Shown here: positions 8,473 through 22,171 of the stretch, piece after piece
How positions within the stretch are numbered: position 1 is the stretch's first letter
How the letters are laid out: every line of letters begins with the position of its first letter
NCBI RefSeq assembly: GCF_000350165.1
Contig: NZ_CAUI01000023.1
Coordinates: 620,001-684,000 of the forward strand
Direction of reading: 5' to 3'
Source of the DNA: Halanaerobium saccharolyticum subsp. saccharolyticum DSM 6643
GTDB taxonomy: Bacteria; Bacillota; Halanaerobiia; Halanaerobiales; Halanaerobiaceae
DNA: 64,000 bases
The notes under the pieces: model-generated
What the model was told of the DNA's origin: nothing
The model's database searches: none
What the model saw: the letters and a program-made list of their open reading frames with translations, nothing else
Position numbers and translations under genes: made by a program

Positions 8473-8988
8473 TTAAGGCAGACCCAATTCTTTAACTTTT
8501 GCTGCTGGAGATTCTGCTTTCATTAGTGTTTCACCAATCAAAACTCCATCAACACCAATTTCTTTTAAAAAATCTATATCTTCTCTTGTCTTGATTCCGC
8601 TTTCTGCAATCAGATAATGATTATCCCGCTGGCCCAGTCTTTTTAGTTCTTTTGTCAGCTCTGTTGTAGTTTTTAGATCAACACTGAAATCATTCAAATC
8701 ACGATTGTTAATTCCGATAATTTCGGCCTCTGTTTTAAGGACCCGTTCCAACTCATCCAGATTATGAACCTCAACGATCACTTCCAGCTTAAGTTCTCGG
8801 CAGAGAGTCAAAAAGCTCTCCAACTGCTCATTATCTAAAATAGCTGCAATTAAAAGCACCAAATCAGCTCCGATAAAAAAGCTTTCATAAATCTGTAATG
8901 GATCAATAATAAATTCTTTGCGTAAAATTGGCAGTTCAGTCAGCTCTCTCATCTGCTGTAGAATCTGATTACTTCCCTGAAAAAATTT
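8473..8988 (-). pseudogene. trpC: 3' remnant of indole-3-glycerol-phosphate synthase
   Basis: This encodes the C-terminal 171 residues of TrpC (family length about 260). The open frame starts at the TrpC-typical KFFQGSNQILQQM, continues through the conserved LPILRKEFIIDP, and carries the later motifs EVHNLDEL, GINNRDL, AESGI and VLIGETLMKA. Going upstream, the frame meets a TAG at 8989-8991 and TrpC similarity stops there. The missing 90 or so residues include the N-terminal phosphate-binding and substrate lysine region, so this fragment should not be active even if it starts at the internal ATG at 8952. The sequence immediately upstream belongs to the HEPN cassette gene. Confidence 0.9.
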
Positions 8989-9674
8989 CTAGAGCAGTGA
9001 TAATTAATATCTATTTTTATCCATTTTTCATCTGAACTTTGATAAAAGAACAAATTACAATATTCATTTTCTATGTTACTCAAAGATTCATACCACTTTT
9101 CTTGAGTATTTGTAGGAACAATATCAGTTATCTGAATTATATTTAAAAGACCTTTTTCAACTGAATTTAAAATATGATTTCCATTTTGCTTAACTAATTC
9201 TACATCCTCTTTTTTCATTGGTCTAAAATGAGCTAAAGCATTTCTAACATTACTAATTTCATCTAATTTAGTTTTAACCAGTTTTCTTTTGCAATTAAAA
9301 TAATCATTAAAGTATTTCCAATAAGAATCTGAAACAATTATACTAATTAATTCTCCACTAGTAAGGTACATCATAGGGCAAGTTACTGAATAACCTAAAT
9401 AACCATAATCTTCATCTTGACTCATTCTTCTTTTAGCAATTGAACTAATAGTTCCTTTTTCATTGTCATCACTAGTAATTTGAATGGAATCCCAACCATC
9501 TTGGTATTGCTCTTTTAATATTATATATACAAATATTCTCAAAGAATTTTCTATTCGAAATAATATATTAAATATTTCATAATAATGTGAATGTATCCAT
9601 TGGTTAGGTATTTTTAGTTTTCTTTGTGCTTTAAAACCATCATTTTTTTCAATTTCCATATCTCCCCAATTCAT
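8949..9674 (-). CDS. HEPN-domain protein (third, broken cassette)
   Basis: A 241-residue protein that is mostly helical. The motif RNALAH (residues 144-149) is the RX4H signature of HEPN ribonucleases; it sits in VRNALAHFRPM, a form seen in Swt1-like/abortive-infection HEPN proteins. The N-terminal helices (SHYYEIFNILFRIENSLRIFVYIIL) fit that family. Toxic RNase or anti-phage activity is inference. The last 13 or so residues (SRNFFREVIRFYSR) are trpC DNA read out of frame, so the natural C-terminus and the cassette's own attC-like site have been lost. The ATG has an AAAGGAGG site and the cassette begins 35 bp upstream. Confidence 0.75.
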   Translation of the reverse strand: MNWGDMEIEKNDGFKAQRKLKIPNQWIHSHYYEIFNILFRIENSLRIFVYIILKEQYQDGWDSIQITSDDNEKGTISSIAKRRMSQDEDYGYLGYSVTCPMMYLTSGELISIIVSDSYWKYFNDYFNCKRKLVKTKLDEISNVRNALAHFRPMKKEDVELVKQNGNHILNSVEKGLLNIIQITDIVPTNTQEKWYESLSNIENEYCNLFFYQSSDEKWIKIDINYHCSRNFFREVIRFYSR

Positions 9675-9702
9675 AAAAAGTTCCTCCTTTAAAATGCTAT
9701 TT

Positions 9703-9844
9703 CTGATAACGTCCCTGGGATTTGCGCTCGTGACTGGTTCCGCAGGAACTGGCGTAAAGCTTGCTTTTTCGTATCCGTAATTGGTTAGCCTGCAAGCTTT
9801 ATGACAGAAGGTATGACGCCAATCCCATGTTATGTGATGGAGCC
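9703..9844 (-). repeat. attC-like recombination site 2 (end of cassette 2)
   Basis: Read on the minus strand, the site starts with GGCTCCATCACATAAC (R''-like), then ATGGGATT, an inner arm ending CATAAAGCTTGC, a variable loop, the partner arm GCAAGCTTTA, AATCCCAG and finally GTTATCAG (R'-like, cut site after the first G at 9710). The outer arms pair (ATGGGATT with AATCCCAG; ATAAC with GTTAT). The R'' part matches the inverted start of cassette 2 at 14 of 16 positions. The stop codon of the nucleotidase gene lies inside R''. Most bases outside the central loop match site 1. Confidence 0.85.
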
Positions 9845-10741
9845 TGGTTCTTCTTTATATGGTACTTGAGCAACTGGTACGAATTTAGCAGCAGTGTCTA
9901 AATGAACTATTTGATCATCAAAGAATATATGAGCTCCAAATGCATCTAAAACTTTTCCTTTAGGTGCACCTCCCAAAAAGAAAGCCTCATCAATTCGAAT
10001 TCCCCATTCTCTCAAAGTTCTAATTACTCTTTCATGTGCTGGCATATTTCTTGAAGTTACTAAAGCAGTTCTAATTGGTGATTTTTCACCATTGAATTGT
10101 TTCTGAATAAAAGATAAAGATTTTAATAGTTTTGCAAAGGGACCTTCTGGTAAGGGTTTTTTTGCATTCTCCTTTTCATGTTCTAAAAATGCTTCTAACC
10201 CCTTTTCTTGATATATTTTCTCTGATTCATCTGAAAATAAAACAGCATCTCCATCAAATGCAATTCTAATTTGATCAAGATCATCTTCAGCATAGGTGTA
10301 ATTCTCATATATTAATCCTGCAGCAAAGCCAGCATTAATTGCTTCTTGAACATCTTCTTTATCAGCTGATAAGAAAAGATCTACATCGAAGGCATTCAAA
10401 TAAGGGGTTAATGATTCACCACTAGTTAGTGCAGCTCTAGAAATATCTAGATTATATTTTTCTATTGAATTAAAAATTCTTAAACTTGTATCAGCATTAT
10501 TTCTTGATAAAATTATTACTTCAGACTTTCTTTTGGTAGATACAATCTCATTAATATGTAAAAAACCTTTTATAAGGTTAAAACCTGCTCCTTGTTTTAA
10601 AATATCATTTTCATGCTCAATTTGATATTTAGAATATTCTTTTAATCCCTTTTCTTCATATATCTTGTTTTCTAAAGATAAGTCAAATAAAGCTCTCGAT
10701 GATATTCCAATAACAAGATATTTGTTTAAATCAAAAGGCAA
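9830..10741 (-). CDS. Cytosolic-type 5'-nucleotidase (cassette 2)
   Basis: A protein of about 303 residues of the cN-I-like 5'-nucleotidase family (Pfam 5-nucleotidase type), which dephosphorylates nucleoside monophosphates in the cytoplasm. Family features: the N-terminal KYLVIGISSRALFDL, the ILSRNNADTSLRIFNS segment, the NAFDVDLFLSA segment, an acidic DGDAVLFSDE motif and a C-terminal FFDDQIVH motif that should bind the metal. I chose the TTG at 10741 (MPFDLNKY) because AAAGG lies 9 nt upstream; an ATG three codons earlier directly abuts that site. The last codons and the stop are made by the attC-like site. A role in nucleotide depletion during infection is possible but speculative. Confidence 0.85.
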   Translation of the reverse strand: MPFDLNKYLVIGISSRALFDLSLENKIYEEKGLKEYSKYQIEHENDILKQGAGFNLIKGFLHINEIVSTKRKSEVIILSRNNADTSLRIFNSIEKYNLDISRAALTSGESLTPYLNAFDVDLFLSADKEDVQEAINAGFAAGLIYENYTYAEDDLDQIRIAFDGDAVLFSDESEKIYQEKGLEAFLEHEKENAKKPLPEGPFAKLLKSLSFIQKQFNGEKSPIRTALVTSRNMPAHERVIRTLREWGIRIDEAFFLGGAPKGKVLDAFGAHIFFDDQIVHLDTAAKFVPVAQVPYKEEPGSIT

Positions 10742-10791
10742 AATAATCATCCTTTCTTTTAAAATAAGATTTTAAGTTACAAAGGCTCTGT

Positions 10792-10935
10792 CACATAACG
10801 TTACTGGGATTTGCGCTCGTGCCTGGTTCCACAGGAACTGGCATAAAGCTTGCCGTAATATTTCTTGCTGCTTAATAATTGCAAGCTTTATGACAGAAGG
10901 CATGATGCCAATCCCATGTTATAGGAAGTCAGGCT
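10792..10935 (-). repeat. attC-like recombination site 1 (end of cassette 1)
   Basis: Minus-strand order: R''-like AGCCTGACTTCCTATAAC, ATGGGATT, an arm with ATGCC then CATAAAGCTTGC, a loop, GCAAGCTTTATG, a small side hairpin (GTTCC-tgt-GGAAC), AATCCCAG and R'-like GTTATGTG with the cut expected after G at 10799. The R'' part is the inverted copy of the start of cassette 1 at 13865-13882, matching at 17 of 18 bases. Arms are shared with site 2 while the central loop differs, as in attC families of one integron. Confidence 0.85.
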
Positions 10936-10946
10936 ATGAATTTGAA

Positions 10947-13829
10947 TTATTCAAAACCATATCTTTCTTCTCTTTTTTTGAAGGCATCTTTTCCTCCTTC
11001 TAATATTTCACATACATGCTGTTTAATGCCTTTTTTATATAGAACACCATTTTTTTCTTTATTTTCAAAAGTACATTCTAAAGCTCCAGTTATATATTCA
11101 AATTTATATTTTTTATTATCTCTACCTATTTCTTGTCCGTCTTGATTTGCCACAATTACTGATTCTGCATCTGTAGAAACTACTAAATTTGCATTATGAG
11201 TTACTATAATTATCTGTCTTTCAATTTTTTTGTTTTTAATAAATTCATTTAATTCTTTATATATTGTTCGATTGTCTAAATTGTCTTCTGGTTGATCAAT
11301 AAGAATAGGGTGTTTTGAATTACTCAAATGCAAAAATAGTTGTAATAAAACTAATCCCCTTTTGCCAGGAGACATATGAAATATGGGATCTCCATTTTGA
11401 ATCAAATCATAATTTATGTAGAAATAGTCTTCTAACAAATTTGTTAAAGCATTTCTTTTAGTTGAATTTTTCTTTAGTTTAATATTATTGTTTTCTTTAT
11501 TAAGTAATTTTCTAAATAGATCGTTTATATTTTTTAAATGATTATTTTTATCATAATTATAAATATAATTTTCATAAAACTCATAATCATTCAAGTTAGT
11601 TAATTTTTTATTAATCTCGTCAGTAAAATGATTATCAAATTCATCTTTCTTAAATTTTAATGAAGCTTGTAATTCTATATTTTCAAACACATAATTTTCT
11701 TCTTCTAAATAATTTATAATTTCTTTATATGACTCATATCTTTCTTGATATAAAGAAATAATTACCTCTTTTATTTTTTCTTCTTTATCTAAATTTTTAT
11801 TTATTTTCTTTTCTTCTTTTATAATATTACTTAACTCATTTTTCCTTTCATTTAAATTTTTTTGTAATTTTTCTAATTGATTCTGATTTTTAAATTTAGC
11901 TAAATACGGTTTTAAATCCTTTTTTAATTCTTCATTCTTTGATTTTAATGTTTTAAGTTCATTTTCGTATTCTAATATTGGCTTGAAACTTTTTTCAGTT
12001 ATTTTTTCAACATTATTTTTGAAAGCATTATAAAGCTCATTATATATTTTTTTTAAAATATTTTCATTATCCTCAAAATTAATTAATAATTCTTGATAAC
12101 TATTTTCTATTTTTTCTATAAAATTATTCATTGCAATATTTGTATCAGATTTAAATTTTGTTAAATTATTTATTATTTTTTCTAAATTATTAATTTCTTT
12201 TTCAACTTTTTCCTGTTCATCTTTTATTTGATTGTATTTTTTATTCTCTTCTTCAGAAAAGTTCGAACTTTCTCTTAAAATTTCAATTTCTGAGTTTATA
12301 TTTTTAATCTCTGCTTCTATTGCTTCTTTGTCTCCCAATTTTTTAAAATTTTTATACTGCTCTTCAATTTCTTCTCTAAGCTCAAAAAGATTAACAATCG
12401 AAAGATTAATATCTTTATTTAATTCTTTTATTTCCTCTTGTTTATTATTATATTCGTTTTTAAAATCATCATCTTGTTTCAAAATATCTAAAACTAAACT
12501 ATTTAAATCATCATCACCATCTTCTTCAGCTAAATTATTTATATACATTTGTGGAAGATAAGTTATTGACCGTATATTTTCTTTTTCATTTGATAATTTA
12601 TCTATTCTTCCATCTTTCCATTTTACTTCAAAATCAAATTCAGATTCATCTTCAAAATCATAACCTTTTATTTCAGTTGTATTAATTTTTTTAATAACTT
12701 GTACTGAATCAATAGTTTTAGCAATATGATATAATAACAATGACTTTCCAGAAGATTTACCTCCAATAATTACATTAAGATTTGAGTTTAATTCTATCCA
12801 ATCATCTGGAAAACGATTATCACAAGAATCATCTAAAAATTTAACTTTATCTACTACTTGATAATTAGATTTGTTTTTAGGTTTGATTTGTGAAATTTTT
12901 ACTCTAGTTTCAGGTTCAAATATTATCTGCTTTAATCCTTCAAAACTAGGATTAGCCTTAATCCAAGTTATTTTGTCACTCGGAAATTGACCATATTTTG
13001 AAAACTTATGTGCATCTGTTCCACAACAAGCTGGTTTGGGTTTATTTCCTAAAGTTTTTTGGAAATTATCTATAAAATCTTTGTTATTATCGTTTTTGTT
13101 TCCTAGAAAAAGATCAACATTAGATTCTTTTCGAGTTTCAAAAATATGTGTGGATTGCATAAAATAGTTATCAGCAGAGGGATGATTTGCCCAATCTAAT
13201 TTTTCTAACCCATCTGAAGTGTCATAAGGCATCATAATGAAACCCATATTAGATGGTATTGTATTAAAAGCTTTTTTTAATGATTGACGAGTAATTTCAA
13301 TTGTTTTACAACCAAGCTCAAACAATTCATCATTGTTTAATTTATCTGGTGAAGCATAACCATGATGTTCAGCTTTACTATCATCAAGTGTTTTAGCAAA
13401 GTTAATAATAGCTTCTTTAGATAAAGGTCTATTAATTGAACTTATATGAAGTTGTGATTTAAAATCTAATAACTCTTGTTTTGTTAGGCTATCAGAAAGA
13501 ATAACTTGAACATTTAATCTATAATCAACTGGCGCTTCAATTCGTAACTCCATTCCTGGAAAAACTGTTTTTTTAAGTTTTAAATTATTATCATCAATAT
13601 ATTTATTAAACATTAAATAACCATTAAATGTCCAATAATCTACAAAAGTAAAAACTGATACTTCACAATTATTAATAGTTTTAAGCATTTTTTCTAGCAA
13701 TTCATTTTTTTCATCATCGTTACAATTTGAAAATTTCATTCCATTCCAATGAAAAGAAGCAGGAGTATGGACATGTAAATCCCATTTTCTCCATTCAGAA
13801 CCCTTTGGATATTGGATAAAATCTTTCAT
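10947..13829 (-). CDS. PHP-domain/SMC-like ATPase (TrlF/Ppl-like), cassette 1
   Basis: A 960-residue fusion. The N-terminal PHP phosphoesterase domain has its first metal motif at WDLHVHTP (Asp17, His19, His21) and a late motif CCGTDAH (Asp272, His274). Then comes an SMC/ABC-type ATPase: Walker A GGKSSGKS (about residues 356-363), a long lysine- and glutamate-rich coiled coil (about 460-730), the signature-like SPGKRGL and Walker B ILIDQPEDNLD. This matches the PHP-AAA architecture called TrlF in protein families and Ppl in experimentally tested anti-phage genes; the phage role here is by analogy. The ATG has a GGGAGG site. It is the cassette nearest the recombinase. Confidence 0.85.
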   Translation of the reverse strand: MKDFIQYPKGSEWRKWDLHVHTPASFHWNGMKFSNCNDDEKNELLEKMLKTINNCEVSVFTFVDYWTFNGYLMFNKYIDDNNLKLKKTVFPGMELRIEAPVDYRLNVQVILSDSLTKQELLDFKSQLHISSINRPLSKEAIINFAKTLDDSKAEHHGYASPDKLNNDELFELGCKTIEITRQSLKKAFNTIPSNMGFIMMPYDTSDGLEKLDWANHPSADNYFMQSTHIFETRKESNVDLFLGNKNDNNKDFIDNFQKTLGNKPKPACCGTDAHKFSKYGQFPSDKITWIKANPSFEGLKQIIFEPETRVKISQIKPKNKSNYQVVDKVKFLDDSCDNRFPDDWIELNSNLNVIIGGKSSGKSLLLYHIAKTIDSVQVIKKINTTEIKGYDFEDESEFDFEVKWKDGRIDKLSNEKENIRSITYLPQMYINNLAEEDGDDDLNSLVLDILKQDDDFKNEYNNKQEEIKELNKDINLSIVNLFELREEIEEQYKNFKKLGDKEAIEAEIKNINSEIEILRESSNFSEEENKKYNQIKDEQEKVEKEINNLEKIINNLTKFKSDTNIAMNNFIEKIENSYQELLINFEDNENILKKIYNELYNAFKNNVEKITEKSFKPILEYENELKTLKSKNEELKKDLKPYLAKFKNQNQLEKLQKNLNERKNELSNIIKEEKKINKNLDKEEKIKEVIISLYQERYESYKEIINYLEEENYVFENIELQASLKFKKDEFDNHFTDEINKKLTNLNDYEFYENYIYNYDKNNHLKNINDLFRKLLNKENNNIKLKKNSTKRNALTNLLEDYFYINYDLIQNGDPIFHMSPGKRGLVLLQLFLHLSNSKHPILIDQPEDNLDNRTIYKELNEFIKNKKIERQIIIVTHNANLVVSTDAESVIVANQDGQEIGRDNKKYKFEYITGALECTFENKEKNGVLYKKGIKQHVCEILEGGKDAFKKREERYGFE

Positions 13830-13864
13830 TAAAATCCTCCCTATATTAATATTTTAAAAATTTT

Positions 13865-13967
13865 AGCCTGATTTCCTATAACTTACATATTTGTGAATTT
13901 AATTTCTTTAAAAGCCAAAAAAAATAAATCTTCGTGTCTTGTATTTCATTAAGATCAATATATATCT
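13865..13967 (-). promoter_or_regulatory. Candidate attI-like site and start of cassette 1
   Basis: Between the recombinase stop (13968) and cassette 1 lies a 103-bp AT-rich stretch. It ends on the minus strand in GTTATAGGAAATCAGGCT (13882-13865), where G at 13882 followed by TTATAG is the expected insertion point. No full hairpin like those of the attC-like sites is visible here, as expected for an attI. Extra recombinase-binding boxes cannot be identified by eye. Confidence 0.55.
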
Positions 13968-15062
13968 CTATAATTTATCAAAAGGATTAATAATTCTGGT
14001 TAAGCTTTTATTGCTAACATGAGTATATATTTCAGTTGTTGTGGAACTCTTGTGGCCTAATAAATTTTGTATATATCTTAAATCGACTCCCTGCTCCAAT
14101 AAATGAGTAGCAAAAGAATGTCTTAAAGAATGAATTCCAACCTTTTTATTTATTCCAGCTTTATGGCAGGCTTTTTTAAAAACTTTCTGTGCACTTCTTT
14201 TAGATAAATGCCTATCCTTATTCTGGCCTGGGAAAAGCCACTGTTTATCGTATTTTTGCACCTGAAAGGCTTTTAAATATAGTTTAAGCTTAGTTAAAGC
14301 ACTTTGAGATAATAATGTATACCTATCCTTGTCCCCCTTGCTGTTGCGTATATAAATCAACATTCTTTCTGAATCAATATCAGATATTTTAAGTTTCACA
14401 ACTTCGCTAACTCTTAAGCCTGCAGAATAAGTTATAATTAAAATTAATTGATGTTTTAAATTATAAACTGAGTTAATAATATCTTTAACTTCTCTTTTAT
14501 TTAAAACTTTAGGCAGCTTTTTCTTCTTTTTTGGACGAAATAATTTTCTATTAACGTTCTCCAAGCCTAAAATTAAATTATTAAACGTCTTAAAGGCACT
14601 AATAAATTGATTTGCAAATGAATGAGTATTCTCTTTTTCATCTATCAGATACAAAATATAATCATTCAAATCGTTCATTGTTATAGAAAACAGATCTTTT
14701 TTAAGATAACTAATAAAATTTTTATTATGGTTAATATATACTTTAATTGTACTCTGAGAATAACCTTTTAGCTTTAGCTTTTTTTCAAATTGAGGTAGAT
14801 AATAATAATTTAAATAATCAGTAATTGCATCTGCTGCGGCAAAATTTTTAATTTCACTTTCAAAAATCAAATATTCATCTTTAAACATTTCGATAAAAAG
14901 GGCCAGCTTAGCTTTGTCATTATTAAAGGTCCAATATTTTTGAGCAGGATTCCAACGGCTGCCGGGTATTAATCTGATTTTATTAATAATTTCCTGATTA
15001 TAATTGAATTTAACACAAATTAAATCATTATTATTTAATTTCAAGCTCATTTTCAACCTCAT
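13968..15062 (-). CDS. Tyrosine recombinase with HARP-like N-terminus, candidate cassette integrase
   Basis: A 364-residue tyrosine recombinase with all catalytic residues: Arg217 (AGLRVSE), Lys245 (GDKDR), His311 and Arg314 (HSLRH), His337 (LLGHKS) and Tyr346 (YTHVS). Residues 1-65 form an extra module (VKFNYNQEIINKIRLIPG, then RWNP and YWTF) resembling the HARP domain of SMARCAL1-type proteins. A SAM-like core-binding domain follows at about 80-175. The stretch between Lys245 and His311 is short, so the additional segment that marks classical IntI is missing. It is transcribed toward, and in the same direction as, the cassettes. The ATG at 15062 has AGGAG 10 nt upstream; the ATG at 15050 is an alternative. 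Confidence 0.85.
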   Translation of the reverse strand: MRLKMSLKLNNNDLICVKFNYNQEIINKIRLIPGSRWNPAQKYWTFNNDKAKLALFIEMFKDEYLIFESEIKNFAAADAITDYLNYYYLPQFEKKLKLKGYSQSTIKVYINHNKNFISYLKKDLFSITMNDLNDYILYLIDEKENTHSFANQFISAFKTFNNLILGLENVNRKLFRPKKKKKLPKVLNKREVKDIINSVYNLKHQLILIITYSAGLRVSEVVKLKISDIDSERMLIYIRNSKGDKDRYTLLSQSALTKLKLYLKAFQVQKYDKQWLFPGQNKDRHLSKRSAQKVFKKACHKAGINKKVGIHSLRHSFATHLLEQGVDLRYIQNLLGHKSSTTTEIYTHVSNKSLTRIINPFDKL

Positions 15063-21232: not shown

Positions 21233-22171
21233 GTGATTAAAATTTCTCAATTAGATTTTTTACAAGCTTTAAATAAATTCAAAAAATATCTTGGTGTGGA
21301 AAAAGGATATTCGGAACTGACAATTAAGGAATATAACAGTGATCTGCATCAATTACATAAATATCTGCGGGAAGAACTTGATTTTGAGGAAGGTTTTAAA
21401 GCTGATGACGTTGACCGACTTGATATTGCAGAGTTTTTAGCTGATGCAGTTATTATTAATGATAACAAGGCTGTTACCAGAAATCGCAAGCTTTTTGCTG
21501 TCCGTTCTTTTTATAAATATTTGCTCCATTATGGAATAGTTGCTAAAAATCCTGCTGAAGCTATAGAAAGTAGTAAAACTGATAACAGGCTGGAGCCAAT
21601 TTATTTAAAATTAAAGGAAGCACAGCAATTTATTCAGGCCATTGATGAGCATGGTGGAATCAACCGTCTGCGTGATCTGGCAATAGTTAAATTATTTTTA
21701 TATGCCGGCCTCCGTATCTCGGAACTGGTTAATTTAGATTTTGATAATATTGATTTCGAAGATGGTTCAATCAAATTTTATGGTAAGGGTAAAAAGGAGC
21801 GTTATGTACCGCTGCATAATGATGTGGTGTTAGCAATCAGACGTTATATGCGGGAAAGAAATTCTATTAAAATTAAAGATAGTGATGCCCGACAGGCAGT
21901 TTTTATTTCCCGTCACGGCCGCAGAATCAATCCAAGAACTATTCAGCTATTTGTTAAAAAATATGCAAAAAAAGCAGGTTTAAAAAGAGCTGATAAAATA
22001 ACGCCGCATAAGCTGCGCCATACTTTTGCTTCAACTCTTTATCGCCAGACTAAAGATATTAAAGTACTGCAGGACCTTTTGGGTCATGCCAATCTTTCTA
22101 CAACTCAGATATATACTCATGTAGATACAGAAGAAAAGAAAAATGCTATTGATGAAATGCCAGATTTTTAA
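21233..22171 (+). CDS. XerC/XerD-type tyrosine recombinase
   Basis: A 312-residue recombinase. A SAM-like N-terminal domain (about 5-105) is followed by the catalytic domain with Arg in YAGLRISE, Lys in GKGKKERYVPL, His-x-x-Arg in HKLRHTFA, His in LLGHANL and Tyr in IYTHVD. Length and lack of extra modules fit chromosome dimer resolution at dif, but an integrase of another element cannot be excluded. The GTG start has AAAGG only two bases upstream, so the true start might be a few codons later. It is divergent from clpB. Confidence 0.8.
   Translation: MIKISQLDFLQALNKFKKYLGVEKGYSELTIKEYNSDLHQLHKYLREELDFEEGFKADDVDRLDIAEFLADAVIINDNKAVTRNRKLFAVRSFYKYLLHYGIVAKNPAEAIESSKTDNRLEPIYLKLKEAQQFIQAIDEHGGINRLRDLAIVKLFLYAGLRISELVNLDFDNIDFEDGSIKFYGKGKKERYVPLHNDVVLAIRRYMRERNSIKIKDSDARQAVFISRHGRRINPRTIQLFVKKYAKKAGLKRADKITPHKLRHTFASTLYRQTKDIKVLQDLLGHANLSTTQIYTHVDTEEKKNAIDEMPDF

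Follow-up and report, generated by a model that had tools for sequence, protein, structure and literature searches.

The window analyzed here, a 64,000-nucleotide stretch of the low-GC, 2.87-Mb genome of Halanaerobium saccharolyticum subsp. saccharolyticum DSM 6643, likely holds the part nearest the recombinase of a chromosomal platform of gene cassettes, integron-like but run by a recombinase other than IntI. The recombinase gene, an attI-like site, and single-gene cassettes that all lie on one strand and are each closed by a palindrome of ~145 nt are read directly in the DNA; recombination itself is inferred. On the minus strand, the recombinase gene (15062-13968) is followed, after ~85 nt, by cassette 1 (from 13882), a site, cassette 2, a second site, and cassette 3, which is truncated (Table 1). 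The conservation of the attI-like site in nine genomes stops just past A|GTTA, the cassettes differing from the G|TT point (13882/13881) onward, and the motifs within this site include TCGTGAAGAT and TTCGCAAA. The original prediction, that two imperfect palindromes at 9703-9844 and 10792-10935 are attC-like sites of integron-type cassettes, held as to their exact places, their common arms were confirmed, and the cassette mode of working is supported. The extent then assigned to the feature held only in part, as the attI-like site, the recombinase, and arrays on two other contigs also belong to it; the recombinase directly upstream, which is not IntI, and the spread over at least two phyla were missing from that prediction. 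No LexA-type GAACN4GTTC box was found within the window. Elsewhere in the window, two near-identical cold-shock-protein genes (251-454 and 716-919) form a tandem pair.

Table 1. Coordinates of the cassette platform features within the window
Feature	Position	Strand	Remarks
Tyrosine recombinase gene, 364 aa	13968..15062	minus	Core-binding and catalytic domain; without the IntI additional (I2) domain
HARP-like N-terminal domain of the recombinase, ~residues 12-61	14880..15030	minus	Pfam, PDB profile, and fold matches
attI-like site, ~85 nt, recombinase stop to A|GTTAT	13883..13967	minus	Conserved in 9 genomes
Cassette 1, G|TT to G|TT	10799..13882	minus	Gene 10947-13829, TrlF-family AAA ATPase, related to anti-phage Ppl
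attC-like site, cassette 1	10792..10935	minus	Arm 10918-10935 pairs with own start 13865-13882, 17/18
Cassette 2	9710..10799	minus	Gene 9830-10750, 5'-nucleotidase PF06189 (PADLOC candidate PDC-S08)
attC-like site, cassette 2	9703..9844	minus	Arm 9829-9844 pairs with own start 10784-10799, 14/16
Cassette 3, truncated	8990..9710	minus	Gene from 9674, Swt1-like HEPN protein (PADLOC candidate PDC-M34B)

The two palindromes have stretches of 73 nt (86%) and 43 nt (95%) in common, and the start of cassette 1 (GTTATAGGAAATCAGGCT, minus strand from 13882) agrees with the reverse complement of its own arm at 17 of 18 positions; this count and that predicted for cassette 2 (14 of 16) held exactly. Across 105 cassettes, each lying between two detected sites in the same genome or its relatives, own start and own arm matched at 10.1 of 15 positions compared with 6.7 for mismatched pairs, a difference reached in 0 of 2000 permutations; the effect is a lower bound, as some of the 105 intervals contain an undetected site. 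The signal fades at about position 20 of the cassette start, and own pairing in distant arrays again gave 0 of 2000 permutations, so that the pairing of a start with its own site is not due to chance. The sites are hairpins of ~145 nt with strand asymmetry, built on an R core (GTTAnnn), an inner stem, and a one-nucleotide bulge, with a longer arm and an asymmetric spacer, although no canonical attC model was compared. When folded, the plus strand of the two window sites (the bottom strand as seen from the cassettes) proved far more stable than its shuffles (z of -4.0 and -4.5), against -2.3 and -2.6 for the opposite strand, and in sites rebuilt as they would stand in the excised circle the bottom strand was the more stable in 64 of 65 (mean of -41.1 versus -34.1 kcal/mol for the top strand). 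In all 51 ungapped own pairs, arm position 11 is A in the cassette start and G in the reverse complement of the site arm, which gives an unpaired A-C on the top strand and a paired G-T on the bottom strand; a second class of own pairs has one extra base at this position, and the A/G difference recurs in most well-paired cassettes from Bacteroidota, Clostridia-like, and viral contigs. The folded bottom strand is thus likely to be the working form, although the support is indirect, resting on the stability count and the G-T position by analogy with integrons and on no recombination data. An Rfam match of the palindrome to mir-980 fell under the gathering score and was discarded as spurious.

Within the genome, the site sequence was found in at least 16 places, none dispersed and all within three arrays, namely that of the window (contig C22), an 11-kb contig of cassettes (C17), and the first 13 kb of a third contig (C14). 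The outcome that would have refuted the original prediction, shared arms scattered outside cassettes, was thus not found in this genome, as all 16 DNA matches lie in arrays. It is of note that C14 and C17, when read along the cassettes, share their opening sequence and site (L036 ~668-886, L037 ~10223-10426), and a duplicated cassette likely broke the assembly there. Cassette 3 is without an attC-like site of its own and abuts a truncated trpC at ~8984-8990. Because contig C18, which carries the front half of trpC, ends inside this same gene and overlaps the window copy (8653-8990) by 337 nt at 99% identity, the junction is probably an assembly misjoin, with a partial duplication remaining possible otherwise; insertion of the array into trpC was set aside on the same overlap, and the array end in the window is unreliable. 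Beyond the genes listed in Table 1, the cargo of these arrays includes a KAP NTPase (PDC-S20), a PIN protein, a ParE/Phd pair, an OLD-like ATPase-TOPRIM protein, and a HEPN/RES protein. A large part of the cargo looks defense-like, a matter of similarity only, with functions inferred from the sequences.

Comparison between genomes shows that cassettes move as units with their ends at G|TT, an inference from aligned sequences. Ten whole-cassette pairs between species show 96% identity between their two G|TT ends, whereas their flanks, at 58% before and 56% after, lie at the background of 54% found for random 200-mers of these loci; for example, a 1037-bp cassette is 100% identical between G012 and G018 with different neighbors. 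In 13 further genomes of the family, neither the TrlF gene nor the 5'-nucleotidase gene of the window is present, so the cassette genes are not bound together as a constant group, and permanent linkage of the three genes without sites, the other outcome that would have told against the original prediction, was not found. A covariance model (R1) built from 15 sites (alignment A1) gave hits in 21 of 38 genomes from the order, with 21 sites in G031 and 53 in G014, a genome of the same genus assembled as a single contig of 2,309,262 bp. The recombinase gene of G014 (L046 13388-15730) is split by an IS3-like element; this copy is likely dead, and the 53-site array may now be immobile. No recombinase was detected with the arrays of three other genomes (G011, G013, and G021).

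Our analyses also place the system in at least two phyla, as read from gene and array order. Same-strand arrays follow a recombinase with a HARP-like N-terminus (hereafter HARP recombinase) in four further genomes of the phylum (G042, G076, G084, and G089) and, among Bacteroidota, in Seonamhaeicola, Rufibacter, Winogradskyella, Algibacter, and Flavobacterium aciduliphilum. The Rufibacter arrays were read by eye, as was the canonical IntI array used for comparison, where automatic detection by self-BLAST gave a single site. Among 299 sampled genomes of the phylum, 30 contain a relative at E < 1e-60, roughly half of these full-length. A strict signature of paired start and extended arm occurred downstream of HARP recombinases in 69 same-strand and 1 opposite-strand pairs (247 kb), compared with 2 and 0 downstream of relatives that are not HARP recombinases (160 kb; both in L183, where the recombinase is only partly present) and none in one canonical IntI array; it is sparse in Bacteroidota (4 in ~115 kb), and no clear array was seen in the 10 kb downstream of the HARP recombinases of L139 and L140. 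HARP recombinases with cassette arrays are also carried by two IMG/VR contigs (L205 and L206), whose viral status is inferred from the database only. Others are encoded in an archaeal bin (Candidatus Undinarchaeales) and in a bin of Spirochaetota (L126 and L128), on contigs too short past the gene to reveal arrays, and in Marinilabiliaceae and a related bin (L162, L178, and L180) the open frame is ~680-720 aa, possibly a fusion.

These data bear on the view that the palindromes are dispersed repeats, such as MITE or REP sequences, that happen to follow genes, the cassettes being immobile. In favor of this view, the sites are abundant, alike, and palindromic. On the other hand, every copy in the genome lies in an array, ~18 nt of the arm pair with the start of the same cassette, whole cassettes are common to species while their flanks are unrelated, and the strand bias is 69 to 1. 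This explanation can be regarded as practically ruled out.

The recombinase carries the catalytic set R217, K242, H311, R314, H337, and Y346, invariant across its relatives, and its best match among curated families is archaeal XerA/Xer (NF040815, 236 bits against a cut-off of 220), whereas the IntI profile scores 191 bits, under its cut-off of 265. Because the IntI profile aligns in two pieces (2-180 and 231-315) and skips positions 181-230, which form the additional domain, the recombinase lacks this domain; in agreement, the distance from the KGxKxR to the LFP motif is mostly 30 aa in HARP recombinases and mostly 61 aa in canonical IntI. In our tree, 10 IntI proteins form a clade of their own (support 100/100), also recovered in a larger, quick tree, and the HARP recombinases fall outside it, 24 HARP-type proteins grouping with IS91-type accessory recombinases and a few others (96/89). 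The position of this second clade as sister of IntI is weakly supported (86/48), so that the cassette mechanism may have arisen once or independently in the two. A canonical integron with an ordinary but diverged IntI would account for several observations, as the top fold match of the full-length model (pLDDT 84) is IntI4 (2a3v), the IntI profile matches both halves of the protein, and the G|TT point, an attI, and single-gene cassettes are all there. Against it stand the skipped region and the 30-aa spacing, the exclusion of HARP rows from the fully supported IntI clade, the score of 191 against 265, and the absence of a second, true IntI, none of 61 genomes of the phylum reaching the profile cut-off. 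We consider this alternative highly improbable: by sequence, the enzyme is not IntI, either by the defining feature of IntI, its additional domain, or by clade.

In place of an IntI-type addition, the first ~75 residues of the recombinase resemble HARP. The Pfam family HARP (PF07443) is the top match for four independent recombinase N-termini and, when the set was widened, fitted 6 of 17 members (best E of 5e-7), with E-values ranging from 5e-7 to 0.009 across members and 21 bits for the recombinase of the window, against a gathering cut-off of 25. The best solved structure for a profile of the domain is SMARCAL1 HARP (4o66, E of 0.0024), and the model of the domain, which is confident (pLDDT 89), has XPB and 4o66 as its nearest folds (probability 0.94-0.99, E of 0.035-0.06). 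The assignment is a remote similarity, inferred from sequence and model on moderate E-values. The domain is thus like SMARCAL1 HARP and XPB in sequence and fold, but in those proteins it is joined to a helicase or translocase and here to a recombinase. HARP binds branched DNA, and by analogy the HARP-like domain might be a structure-specific DNA-binding module, a tentative role for which there are no binding data.

The domain missing here has been described as a requirement for IntI activity (Messier and Roy 2001, cited in PMC9668308), so the IntI mechanism cannot be carried over to this enzyme unchanged. In the scheme we propose, the cassette circle would expose the bottom strand of the site, which would fold into a hairpin whose outer R arm (~18 nt) would be complete only in the circle. 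The HARP-domain tyrosine recombinase would bind this hairpin, with the HARP domain probably reading its branched or bulged shape in replacement of the I2 helix of IntI, and would join it at G|TT to attI or to another site; excision would be a site x site reaction. No recombination event, circle, junction PCR, or read supports this scheme as yet, and the mechanism is inferred from sequence alone.

That the HARP recombinase is the enzyme of the array is likely, and likewise inferred, without recombination data, from its linkage, its conserved catalytic residues, and the adjoining attI-like site. Alternatively, the cassettes could be moved on double-stranded, pdif-like sites by another recombinase, for example the host Xer, with the HARP recombinase a passenger. 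The arrays without a detected recombinase and the host Xer protein encoded at 21233-22171 speak for this possibility. However, in many lineages of two phyla the HARP recombinase immediately precedes the attI-like site and first cassette, and recombinase-free arrays can be detached ends, as are the CALINs of canonical integrons. Moreover, Xer/dif sites are short (~28 bp) and double-stranded, whereas the sites here are long hairpins with bottom-strand asymmetry and do not fit an Xer/dif system. We therefore find the passenger explanation improbable and retain the HARP recombinase as the enzyme.

The platform resembles sedentary chromosomal integrons, such as the Vibrio superintegron, in its combination of a recombinase, attI, and same-strand single-gene cassettes in large arrays, in its inferred G|TT crossover, in palindromic sites with a bottom-strand preference inferred from folding, in the pairing of a cassette start with its own R'' box, and in cassettes common to species with defense-like cargo. 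It differs in a recombinase that lies outside the IntI clade, lacks the additional domain, and has a HARP-like N-terminus, in a recombinase gene pointing the same way as the array, and in an asymmetric spacer between the arms of the site. The R arm pairs over ~18 nt with a fixed A/G position, compared with ~9-10 nt in a canonical IntI array (L188), a comparison made by eye on a few cassettes only; a search of L188 with model R1 gave no match. The recombinase gene also reads in cassette direction in the integrons of Spirochaetota, where a reversed intI orientation has been reported (PMC9668308), but their recombinases are IntI and the HARP recombinase is not. Archaeal XerA/Xer is alike in sequence family, both being without the IntI insert. 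Xer proteins differ in that they act on short double-stranded sites, where they resolve dimers, and are not known to have a HARP domain or cassette arrays. The accessory tyrosine recombinases of IS91-type elements belong to the clade of the HARP recombinases but have no HARP domain, and the next gene in L049 and L050 looks like an IS91-type transposase, in place of attI and cassettes. The recombinases of L049, L050, L122, L123, and L124 are all same-clade proteins without the HARP domain, and that of L050 seemingly lies within the long G005 array, with weak site matches on either side.

To date, integrons have been held to need IntI with its I2 helix for recombination of folded single strands, and acquisition of I2 has been regarded as the step to single-strand recombination (Escudero et al., PMC7790495). 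Smyshlyaev et al. (PMC8138268) found the insertion not fully conserved in an integron-like subgroup while calling it essential for integron function. IntegronFinder calls IntI by the overlap of PF00589 with an IntI-specific domain (PMC9668308), and because it requires that domain, the HARP recombinase is missed by design. That integrons are little known in low-GC anaerobes, as the original prediction had stated, held: IntegronFinder 2.0 reported one complete integron among all Firmicutes genomes screened (PMC9024848), in contrast to the 53 sites of a single-contig genome from the genus of the window. In the literature searched, which left out preprints and many subscription journals, no paper linked integron, attC, and Halanaerobium, and within the same limits none linked a HARP domain with a tyrosine recombinase; the few papers naming integrons together with Halanaerobium or Halanaerobiales treat other subjects, judging by their titles. 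An integron-like platform with a non-IntI recombinase thus appears likely to be new, although a preprint describing it is not excluded.

From an evolutionary point of view, we lean, without pressing the point, toward a bolder reading in which Bacillota, Bacteroidota, and some other lineages harbor a second, ancient class of integron, with HARP recombinases that recognize single-stranded hairpin sites without I2. In this class, the role of I2 would fall to the HARP domain together with a longer R arm, either as one of two solutions to the same task or with I2 having been added later in the IntI line. The finding makes it possible to test whether I2 is the sole route to hairpin recombination and how integrons arose from Xer-like enzymes, a question discussed by Escudero et al., and it suggests that anaerobes and Bacteroidota hold a large reservoir of cassettes still to be mined, many of them defense-like.
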